Of a stretch of 51,013 nucleotides of DNA, positions 26,953 to 28,914 are shown piece after piece. The notes under the pieces are model-generated. The model did no database searches and was not told where the DNA came from. It saw only the letters and a list, made by a program, of their open reading frames with translations. The DNA comes from Flavobacteriales bacterium (GTDB lineage: Bacteria > Bacteroidota > Bacteroidia > Flavobacteriales_D > Parvicellaceae), in the NCBI GenBank assembly GCA_016780365.1, contig JADHMB010000007.1, forward strand, positions 1-51,013, in the 5' to 3' direction. The translations under genes were made by a program, and so were the position numbers. The number at the start of each line of letters is the position of its first letter. The first letter of the stretch is position 1.

Positions 26953-27969
26953 ATGCATAAATCTGAATTAATAGCCTTAATAAAGTTTTTTTCTGTTAAA
27001 AAAGCAGTAAATGTAATTAGGCTTTACCTAAGTTTTATCGTTTCAAGGTTTTTTAAAAAATCTTTCATTTCAGGACTTCCATTTGCATTAAGTATAGAAC
27101 CAACCACTTCTTGTAATTTAGGTTGTCCAGAATGTCCAAGTGGGCTAAAACAATTCACAAGAAAAACAGGAAATCTTTCCATTGCTTTAAATAAAAAAAT
27201 AATTGATGAGCTAAAAGGAAGACTAACATATATAAATTACTATTTCCAAGGAGAGCCTTACATAAACAAAAACTTTTTTGATTTTGTACAATACGCTAAT
27301 TCAAAAAAAATATTTTGTTCTACTTCTACAAATGGTCATTTTCTAAATGATGAAAATTGTGTAAAAACAATTGAATCTGGCCTAAAAAGATTAATCATTT
27401 CAATTGATGGAAATAGCCAAGAGACCTATGAAATATATCGTAAAAAAGGGAAATATGAAAGAGTAATAGAGGGGACAAAAAACATTATAAAATGGAAAAA
27501 GGAATTAAATAGTCAATATCCTCATGTAATCTTTCAATTTTTAGTGGTTAAAACCAATGAGCATTTAATTGAGGAGATGAAAACATTGGCAGCAGATCTC
27601 GGAGTAGACGAACTTCGATTAAAAACTGCTCAGTTCTACAATTTTGAAAACGGAAATGAATTGATTCCAGATAATGAAAAATATTCTAGATATAGGAAAA
27701 CAAAGGATGGAAATTACATTCTTAAAAATAAATTTTCTAATCATTGCTGGCGAATGTGGAGCAGTGCTGTTGTAACTTCTAAAGGTGGAATTGTACCTTG
27801 TTGTTTTGATAAAGACGCAGTAAATACTCTAGGGGATTTGGAAAAGGAAAATTTTGAAAAAGTTTGGCTAAGCAAAAAGTACAATGATTTTAGAAAACAA
27901 ATATTTTCGGAAAGAAAAGAGATTGAAATTTGTCAGAATTGTTCTGAAGGGTCGAAAGTATGGGCATAA
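26953..27969 (+). CDS. Radical SAM protein with SPASM-like C-terminus
   Basis: A 338-residue protein with the radical SAM cluster motif CNLGCPEC (Cys54, Cys58, Cys61), a TIM-barrel core (YYFQGEPYINKNFFD, STSTNGHFL, ISIDGNSQETYEIYRKKGKY) and a C-terminal Cys set (265, 283, 284, 327, 330) resembling a reduced SPASM domain that binds an auxiliary cluster. Family members modify peptides, sugars or lipids. No precursor peptide is evident nearby. A basic, partly hydrophobic N-terminal stretch (about 1-45) precedes the core. It converges on the small lipoprotein gene. Substrate unknown. Confidence 0.85.
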   Translation: MHKSELIALIKFFSVKKAVNVIRLYLSFIVSRFFKKSFISGLPFALSIEPTTSCNLGCPECPSGLKQFTRKTGNLSIALNKKIIDELKGRLTYINYYFQGEPYINKNFFDFVQYANSKKIFCSTSTNGHFLNDENCVKTIESGLKRLIISIDGNSQETYEIYRKKGKYERVIEGTKNIIKWKKELNSQYPHVIFQFLVVKTNEHLIEEMKTLAADLGVDELRLKTAQFYNFENGNELIPDNEKYSRYRKTKDGNYILKNKFSNHCWRMWSSAVVTSKGGIVPCCFDKDAVNTLGDLEKENFEKVWLSKKYNDFRKQIFSERKEIEICQNCSEGSKVWA

Positions 27970-27991
27970 AAAAAGCCCTAAAAAGGGCTTT
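27968..27991 (-). terminator. Terminator of the small lipoprotein gene, possibly bidirectional
   Basis: Arms AAAGCCCT (27972-27979) and AGGGCTTT (27984-27991) with a four-base loop. On minus it follows the lipoprotein stop at 28012 and is extended by a run of seven U (27974-27968). On plus it lies right after the radical SAM stop, but its U run is only three bases, so it may serve both genes unequally. Confidence 0.85.
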
Positions 27992-28011: not shown

Positions 28012-28251
28012 TTAATGATCGTGACCATCGTGCTCTTCCTCTGCAGGAGCTTCTTCAGCAGCTTCTTCCATTGTAGAATCAGCAGCAGCTTCTTCCATTG
28101 TAGAATCAGCAAATGGAGCAACTTCTTCAACTGGAGCAACTTCTTCAACTGGAGCAGCTTCTTCAACTGGTTCAGCAGCAGGAGCTTCTTCTGTTGCAGC
28201 ACCACATGATATCATCAATGCGGTAACAGGTAAAATCCAAAACTTTTTCAT
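28012..28251 (-). CDS. Small Glu/Ala/Val-rich repeat lipoprotein with His-rich tail
   Basis: A 79-residue lipoprotein: signal peptide MKKFWILPVTALMISC with lipobox Cys16, then a low-complexity acidic chain and the C-terminus HDGHDH. The chain is built from internal repeats: PVEEVA/EEAAPV units (18-bp DNA repeat) and ADSTMEEAA twice (27-bp repeat). No fold is expected. The His/Asp tail could bind metal ions (inference). It is a real gene rather than a low-complexity artefact, judged by its exact lipobox, ATG start and a strong terminator directly behind the stop. Function unknown. Confidence 0.75.
   Translation of the reverse strand: MKKFWILPVTALMISCGAATEEAPAAEPVEEAAPVEEVAPVEEVAPFADSTMEEAAADSTMEEAAEEAPAEEEHDGHDH
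28057..28168. repeat. Two short in-frame tandem repeats inside the lipoprotein gene
   Basis: A 27-bp unit occurs twice, with identical 24-bp cores at 28057-28080 and 28084-28107. An 18-bp unit occurs three times (28115-28132, 28133-28150, 28151-28168), the third copy with one change. Both periods are multiples of three, so copy-number changes would lengthen or shorten the protein without a frameshift. Confidence 0.85.
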
Positions 28252-28353
28252 AATAATTGATTTAAATATTTATAATTTGCAAATTAATTCGTGTAAAACT
28301 CTAGATATTTTTGATAAAATCCTAATTATCAATGATAAAAGTACAATAAGATT

Positions 28354-28914
28354 TTAGACTTTCATGATGTCTAGTTCTTTGACAGCTACTAAATCGTCAA
28401 CTTTTTTTGTAAAAGTATCTGTTAATTTTTGGATAAATTCTTCAGAATCTTTGACTTCATCTTCACTAAGACCTTCATCTTTCAAGCTTTTGATCATATC
28501 GTTAGCATCTTTTCTTTGAGATCTAATACTAACTTTTGCATTCTCACCTTCAGATTTGGCTGTTTTAACAAGATCTTTTCTTCTTTCTTCGGTCAAAACG
28601 GGAACTGAAATAATAATAACTTCTCCATTATTCTGGGGGTTTAATCCTAGATTGGCATTAATTACAGCTTTAGTAATTTCATCTAACATAGGTTTTTCCC
28701 ATGGTTGGATAGTTAATGTTCTAGAATCTAAAGTGCTTACATTTCCAATTTGAGCTAATGGGGTGGGTGAACCATAATAATCAACCTTAACGGTGTCTAG
28801 CATTGAAGGGTTTGCTCTTCCAGCTCTAATTTTACTTAATTCTACGGAAAGATGAGAAACACACTTATTCATTGCTAACTCAGCCTCATCTAAGATAATA
28901 TCAACTTCTTCCAT
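28354..28914 (-). CDS. frr: Ribosome recycling factor
   Basis: Splits post-termination ribosomes together with EF-G. The 186-residue protein shows the family landmarks: LSKIRAGRANPSMLDTVKVD, YYGSPTPLAQIGNVSTLDSR, IQPWEK and, toward the C-terminus, PVLTEERRKDLVK followed by the helical EDVEDSEE-like segment. It follows pyrH by seven bases in the usual pyrH-frr order. No strong terminator is visible in the 102 bases between it and the downstream lipoprotein gene. Confidence 0.97.
   Translation of the reverse strand: MEEVDIILDEAELAMNKCVSHLSVELSKIRAGRANPSMLDTVKVDYYGSPTPLAQIGNVSTLDSRTLTIQPWEKPMLDEITKAVINANLGLNPQNNGEVIIISVPVLTEERRKDLVKTAKSEGENAKVSIRSQRKDANDMIKSLKDEGLSEDEVKDSEEFIQKLTDTFTKKVDDLVAVKELDIMKV

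Follow-up and report, generated by a model that had tools for sequence, protein, structure and literature searches.

We found that a 79-residue acidic protein, encoded on the minus strand of the window (the whole 51,013-nt stretch of DNA analyzed here), belongs to a set of syntenic orthologs in which the body of the protein is replaced between genera, while the lipobox, an acidity nearly free of Lys and Arg and, in most cases, a His-rich tip persist. We tentatively interpret this protein as a genuine, conserved envelope lipoprotein composed of three modules, with a polyanionic spacer of variable length between the lipid anchor and a His/Asp tip at the C-terminus. The kept anchor and charge, the mostly kept tip and the free middle fit an extended tether with a cation-binding tip, and the reading that we favor, with some reservation, is a lipid-anchored, probably unfolded acidic spacer carrying a putative weak site for divalent metals.

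In the mechanism that we propose, the lipid would tether the protein to a membrane, probably the outer one, and the acidic spacer would hold the chain extended and attract cations. The repeats of the spacer would count for length and charge rather than for sequence, and would thus be free to expand and contract. Weak, exchangeable sites for transition metals are commonly made of three His residues with Asp or Glu neighbors, and the three His of the tip, together with the neighboring Asp/Glu, would form such a site for Zn2+, Cu2+ or Ni2+. Many tethered copies would then buffer divalent metal at the envelope.

The lipoprotein gene and its surroundings

The open reading frame begins with ATG and encodes a protein that runs from MKKFWILPVTALMISC, followed by GAATEE, to EEEHDGHDH (Table 1). 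The reading frame and its translation on the minus strand thereby confirm the original prediction of a 79-residue lipoprotein with an HDGHDH end. By eye, the N-terminus has the features of a bacterial lipoprotein (basic residues, a hydrophobic stretch and a lipobox Cys, here in the sequence ISC), and lipidation is predicted from them. The lipobox Cys is present in 17/17 orthologs, and in a cross-genus alignment of the signal region M1, K2, K3 and P8 are invariant, with W5, I6, L7, A11 and C16 found in at least 90% of the sequences.

Table 1. Features of the lipoprotein locus, in positions of the window.
Feature	Position	Strand	Basis or remark
CDS, acidic His-tailed lipoprotein, 79 aa	28012..28251	-	stop codon 28012-28014; syntenic orthologs
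Lipoprotein signal peptide and lipobox, MKKFWILPVTALMIS before the Cys (residue 16)	28204..28251	-	best-conserved block across genera
18-bp tandem repeat, 3.4 copies, 95% matches, PVEEVA units	28110..28170	-	Tandem Repeats Finder
27-bp tandem repeat, 2.1 perfect copies (100%), ADSTMEEAA units	28056..28111	-	Tandem Repeats Finder
C-terminal HDGHDH tail	28015..28032	-	H-[DE]-G-H-[DE]-H and stop in 9/11 genus genomes
Intrinsic terminator, in the gap that separates the lipoprotein gene from the convergent radical SAM gene	27972..27991	-	hairpin scan, folding, conservation
Upstream block TGATAATTAGGATTTTATCAAAAATATC, possible promoter or leader element	28304..28331	-	alignment, conserved in genus
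frr (ribosome recycling factor), upstream neighbor	28354..28914	-	context only
Radical SAM/SPASM protein gene, convergent neighbor	26953..27969	+	context only, not dedicated partner

The mature part has 64 residues, among them 22 Asp or Glu and no Lys or Arg; Glu, Ala, Pro and Val make up 46 of the 64, in agreement with the predicted dominance of these four residues after the lipobox. We compared this composition to that of 11,977 overlapping 64-aa segments, which came from 32 further ORFs of the window with a length of 220 aa or more. None of these segments had more than 20 acidic residues, yet 64 were free of Lys and Arg. Thus, the composition is extreme, but not unique. No Pfam-A or NCBIfam model reached its curated cut-off for the 79-aa protein; the best were CT47 (13.9; cut-off 27) and NF050142 (17.1; cut-off 50). 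An AlphaFold model had no confident fold (mean pLDDT 55, pTM 0.12), which is weak evidence for disorder, since the underlying alignment held only 7 sequences; the mature chain is probably unfolded.

The predicted lipid would anchor the protein to a membrane, for which the outer membrane is plausible. Residues +2 to +7 (G-A-A-T-E-E) do not match the published lipoprotein export signals of Bacteroidetes, which come from other species and may not be those of this genus. The signals reported in PMC5080379 follow the Cys and consist of K-(D/E)2 or Q-A-(D/E)2 in C. canimorsus, SDDDD in B. fragilis and SDDFE in F. johnsoniae. Because of this misfit, surface exposure is not supported, and an outer-membrane lipoprotein that faces the periplasm is no less probable than a surface-exposed one.

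The gene was predicted to have its own strong terminator. We found a hairpin with an 8-bp stem, 4 G-C pairs and a T run. A terminator scan of the region detected this 1 site compared to a mean of 1.6 in shuffled sequences, and the pattern alone is thus no evidence. The 48-nt terminator stretch, in turn, folds at -13.3 kcal/mol, which 0/200 shuffles equaled, and a hairpin followed by at least 7 T occurs at 17/17 orthologous loci. "Own" is only partly right, because the hairpin sits between two convergent genes, with the longer T run on the lipoprotein side. The abundant expression that had been suggested for the gene was deduced from the terminator and is conjectural.

The block upstream of the gene contains a palindrome, TGATAA-N8-TTATCA, that is intact in 9/11 genus loci, and the RNA fold of the block is unremarkable (z -0.95). 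In the genome that carries the window, the block has 1 zero-mismatch match and 4 matches with 3 mismatches (reversed control, 3 matches). We rejected the palindrome as a regulon motif, with 3 sites compared to 2 for the reversed control. The TTAGGA core of the block is also seen in three genomes of other genera (G013, G016 and G029).

On one side the lipoprotein gene is flanked by frr and pyrH, and on the other by the radical SAM gene and then a gene for an MMPL-family transporter; no metal gene is found among these neighbors. Judged by the radical SAM protein, the nearest named relatives are 90-95% identical (L031-L035; Flavobacteriales, Crocinitomicaceae and "Bacteroidetes bacterium MED-G20", a group that we take to be marine); NCBI places MED-G20 no more precisely than among unclassified Bacteroidota. 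Four more distant loci (L043, L046, L048 and L069) have frr on the downstream side of the radical SAM gene, and no small acidic lipoprotein was found between the two; the frr/radical SAM neighborhood may thus predate the lipoprotein.

Orthologs, repeats and a changing body

We examined 39 genomes of the family and found frr in 36; the three with no frr match (G018, G027 and G035) were not judged, and the genome of the window is itself an incomplete assembly of 1.97 Mb. An ortholog of the lipoprotein gene follows frr in 18 of the 36 (17 complete, 1 cut by a contig end), and among frr-bearing genomes the carriers are 11/11 of the window's own genus, g1, 2/2 of g4, 3/3 of g7 and 2/2 of g9. The cut copy is in a g7 genome (G023), where the contig ends after 19 residues of the lipoprotein and the radical SAM side is not visible; the radical SAM gene is convergent downstream in all 17 complete loci. 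In the non-carriers (4 genomes of g2, 3 of g3, 1 of g5, 3 of g6 and 7 of g8), a search for acidic lipoprotein-like ORFs of 40-130 aa over 1.5 kb from frr (0.86 kb for L115) gave none. Each g1 genome has a single match at E 1 or better, and the genome of the window has a single match even at E 10. In g3 (L104, L105 and L108), larger lipoprotein-like ORFs of ~190-205 aa occupy the same place after frr.

An order-wide profile search matched 53/299 genomes, 18 of which are the known carriers. Among 14 weaker loci that we examined, none has frr, pyrH, the radical SAM gene or the MMPL gene in its vicinity, and L133 and L135 yielded no ORF under the filter applied. Many of the 14 encode longer lipoproteins in which the match is confined to the start, and these were not counted as orthologs. 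Two loci in other families of the order (L128 and L136) encode small acidic lipoproteins with a His-rich end. The acidic bodies of these two and of L127 weakly resemble apolipoprotein repeats, below the cut-off.

Two nested, in-frame tandem repeats had been predicted, and the repeats are indeed in frame; the 18-bp and 27-bp arrays lie side by side, however, rather than nested (Table 1). Further arrays were also found: a weaker 9-bp period within the 18-bp array (56% matches), another 27-bp array (78%) and a 12-bp array. Within g1, the body consists of PVEEVA and ADST(M/A)EE units whose number varies in frame, with a total length of 70-86 aa among 11 genomes, so that length variation, which the repeats had led to be predicted for strains, is seen between species. 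The ORF is present in 10/10 other genomes of the genus with no frameshift, contrary to the absence or frame-breaking indels that would have spoken against it, although in G006 the tail is immediately preceded by a TAG. Since units that are multiples of 9 bp keep the frame automatically, an intact frame within the repeats says little about selection by itself. The repeat units in part change together within a genome: G005 has GAT TCA ACG GC(T/C) in both its units and G000 has GAT TCT ACA ATG in both, while in G007, G008, G009 and G010 the units within one genome differ at those codon sites.

Outside g1, the body is low in complexity but of a different kind: G016, G021 and G025, as well as G029 in its first part, have an acidic body rich in Met and Ala, that of G013 is rich in Gly, and that of G031 is made of ADSTA units. 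Asp and Glu nevertheless make up 30-41% of the mature part of the orthologs, Lys and Arg are absent from 16/17 (G013 has one), and the net charge is -17 to -32 in 17/17. A terminal His-rich cluster is found in 14/17; it is absent from G001, cut off by the TAG in G006, and replaced in G013 by His residues inside the chain. Across the 11 g1 genomes, pN/pS is 0.15 for signal residues 1-17, compared to 0.19 for the 16 codons at the start of the mature part, each from few sites.

The His/Asp tail and metal genes

The protein has 3 His among its last 6 residues, clustered with acidic neighbors as in a His-rich metal-binding segment. Its pN/pS is 0.09 over the 9 intact genus tails (G001 and G006, which are tail-less, were left out), a value that rests on six codons and is noisy. 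G001 has no tail at all, and in G006 the decayed HNGQDH lies beyond a TAG. Because the tail is lost in these 2 of 11 genus members, the tip is dispensable in them. In the tail-less G001, the matching region of a heavy-metal-RND-like gene also contains two stops (L169; G001:C1:428025-431120), possibly a coincidence.

We searched the order for the pattern H-[DE]-G-H-[DE]-H-stop and found it in 20/299 genomes, with no match listed for the reversed control. Ten of the 20 are orthologs (9 of g1, and G029). The other 10 comprise 2 thioredoxin-like proteins, 4 cyclophilin-FKBP isomerases, 1 DUF6370 protein and 3 proteins of 47-52 aa; Pfam was run on one protein per larger type (L164, L140 and L145) and the remaining tail proteins were grouped by eye. 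All 10 have a signal peptide by eye (the larger ones including L139, L143, L140, L141, L144, L146 and L145), and most are not known metal proteins. In a class-wide sample, 3/395 genomes had the motif, one being the genome of the window, compared to 2 control matches; since 2 further hits equal 2 control matches, the motif is at chance level by number outside the order. These two hits are L159, an FKBP-type protein that by eye resembles SlyD, and L160, a lipoprotein that carries a heavy-metal-binding domain.

One of the tiny tail proteins lies in a candidate metal-efflux locus. In G168 (L142:1504-1659, L166), a 52-aa His-tailed lipoprotein is encoded between an RND adaptor and a P-type ATPase, in the order RND pump (which includes an outer-membrane efflux domain), adaptor, 79-aa acyl-carrier-like ORF, tiny lipoprotein, methyltransferase-like membrane protein and P-type ATPase. 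The adaptor exceeds the RND_mfp cut-off, while its nearest metal subfamily, CzcB/NccB, is below cut-off; the best models for the ATPase are of the Cd/Zn type, below cut-off and on a cut piece. G012 (L158, L167) has a similar locus, in which the ATPase exceeds the family cut-off and the tiny His-tailed protein has no lipobox Cys. By eye, no metal gene was seen within ~6 kb on either side of the tiny His-tailed protein of G020.

We also asked which metal transporters the carriers encode. None of the 11 g1 genomes (G000-G010) has a heavy-metal P-type ATPase, while the same search was positive in 14/14 control genomes; similarly, 0/11 exceed the cut-off for the heavy-metal RND pump model TIGR00914, although 10/11 match it at E 1e-20 or better. 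In the family as a whole, 15/39 genomes match the P1B-ATPase model TIGR01525, 9 over its cut-off. Matches among carrier genera number 0/11 in g1, 0/2 in g4, 0/4 in g9 and 3/3 in g7 (one a contig-end fragment), and among non-carrier genera 4/4 in g2, 4/4 in g3, 4/7 in g8, 0/1 in g5 and 0/3 in g6. The ATPase was thus not found in the 17 genomes of g1, g4 and g9, but the 3 g7 genomes carry both the lipoprotein and the ATPase, and the non-carriers g5 and g6 also have no ATPase. Because the lineages are related and the assemblies incomplete, and because g5, g6 and g7 misfit, we regard this pattern as a lead and not a test.

A broader proposal, which we consider speculative and rather doubtful, is that these proteins constitute a previously undescribed family of metal buffers tethered in the envelope of small-genome Bacteroidota. 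A rapidly rewritten, length-tunable polyanionic spacer would lead from the lipid anchor to a conserved His/Asp tip and provide a passive metal reservoir in lineages where metal-exporting P1B-ATPases are mostly absent, with the tip motif reused on other exported proteins of the order. If this picture is right, it would point to a cheap, passive means by which small-genome bacteria cope at the envelope with metals that are scarce or toxic. Likewise, selection would preserve the two termini and the net charge but leave the middle free to be exchanged, which would make the protein a clear natural case of composition-level conservation in a disordered bacterial protein. If the metal idea is wrong, what remains is an unnamed, fast-evolving family of acidic lipoproteins with readily length-variable repeats.

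Alternative readings and related proteins

An outer-membrane metal buffer, a spacer and a charge-layer protein had each been suggested for this gene. Among these, the metal buffer is the best supported, by the slow change of the tail where it is kept, by the motif on exported proteins and by the 52-aa analogue in a metal-efflux locus, with metal binding itself putative. If the acidic, disordered chain were instead itself functional, as a polyanionic charge layer or spacer acting through hydration, repulsion or attraction of Mg/Ca, the His tail would be minor. We think this unlikely, though it deserves serious weight: the strongly negative charge is found in every ortholog and the Lys/Arg-free state in all but one, while sequence and composition type change freely; the acidic body, unlike the tail, is never lost in the genus; and the order has other small lipoproteins (L015, L030 and L127) that are acidic but carry no His tail. 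Against it, the kept tails have a lower pN/pS than the first 16 mature codons (a comparison that covers those codons and not the repeat body), and each of the four carrier genera has the tail, which is also seen on exported proteins with unrelated folds. It is improbable, in our estimate, that the protein is a small structural lipoprotein that stabilizes the outer membrane, like Lpp or H. pylori HP0135, whose deletion is reported to result in vesiculation (PMC11768039). Size and lipid anchor agree with such a role, and the G016 ortholog and three look-alikes match the Lpp/OprI alanine-zipper weakly (15.7-17.9 bits; cut-off 43), but the 79-aa protein (P0001) itself has no such match, the body in the genus is Pro-rich, and 16/17 mature orthologs contain no Lys for peptidoglycan linkage.

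Two further readings have very little in their favor. The lipoprotein might be the substrate of the adjacent radical SAM/SPASM protein, as maturase and precursor, given that the genes are adjacent and convergent at every complete ortholog locus and that the NCBIfam name "rSAM_w_lipo" points to pairings of SPASM proteins with lipoproteins. We consider this very improbable, since the radical SAM protein scores only 43.4 bits to TIGR04133 (cut-off 425) and the convergent genes have a terminator between them. A search for such a partnership found the lipoprotein beside the gene at 7/59 named Bacteroidota loci, those with 74-95% identity (a few loci are short downstream, L040 having 124 bases), and at another of the 59, L044, a different lipoprotein-like ORF of 98 aa lies beside the radical SAM gene. 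That the ORF is a chance, non-coding frame in a repeat between two real genes would agree with its low complexity and with the lack of any family match at a curated cut-off, but we give this reading almost no credence, because the start, the frame, the lipobox, the acid bias and the terminator are all retained among the orthologs, and pN/pS is 0.09-0.19 in the three segments measured.

Returning to the tethered, cation-binding lipoprotein, we compared it to known systems that it resembles in part. A literature search, most subscription journals being outside its scope, found no title on this lipoprotein family among the matches listed. The tiny lipid-anchored envelope proteins of the Lpp/OprI and HP0135 types are similar in general plan, but the 79-aa protein has no Lys for murein linkage and has a Pro-rich acidic body and a His tail. 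In Braun-type Lpp, a C-terminal Lys links the peptidoglycan, and the mature 79-aa protein has neither Lys nor Arg. The FKBP-type hit L159 ends in the HDGHDH motif, and SlyD-type FKBPs likewise have a His-rich C-terminal end, which in E. coli SlyD is reported as a nickel-binding domain (PMC11198818). SlyD is a cytoplasmic chaperone with an FKBP fold, however, whereas the 79-aa protein is a predicted exported lipoprotein without that fold, for which metal binding is only putative. Similarly, L160 is a lipoprotein by eye with the same His/Asp motif at its end, but it has a heavy-metal-binding domain (HMBD; PF19335) that the 79-aa protein does not have.

The tiny His-tailed protein of G168 and G012 shares a signal peptide, a short acidic stretch and the C-terminal motif with the 79-aa protein; it differs in its 52-aa length, its signal peptide, its metal-efflux locus and its lack of a tandem-repeat body, and we regard it as an analogue rather than a demonstrated homologue. 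The PG1828 family (NF050142) also consists of tiny Bacteroidota lipoproteins, and PG1828 of P. gingivalis is reported to be triacylated (PMC10126205). Its match to P0001 is weak, falling short of the 50-bit cut-off, and covers residues 1-53, which excludes the HDGHDH tail. The 47-aa His-tailed lipoprotein of G020, a genome of the same family, scores 27 bits to this model.
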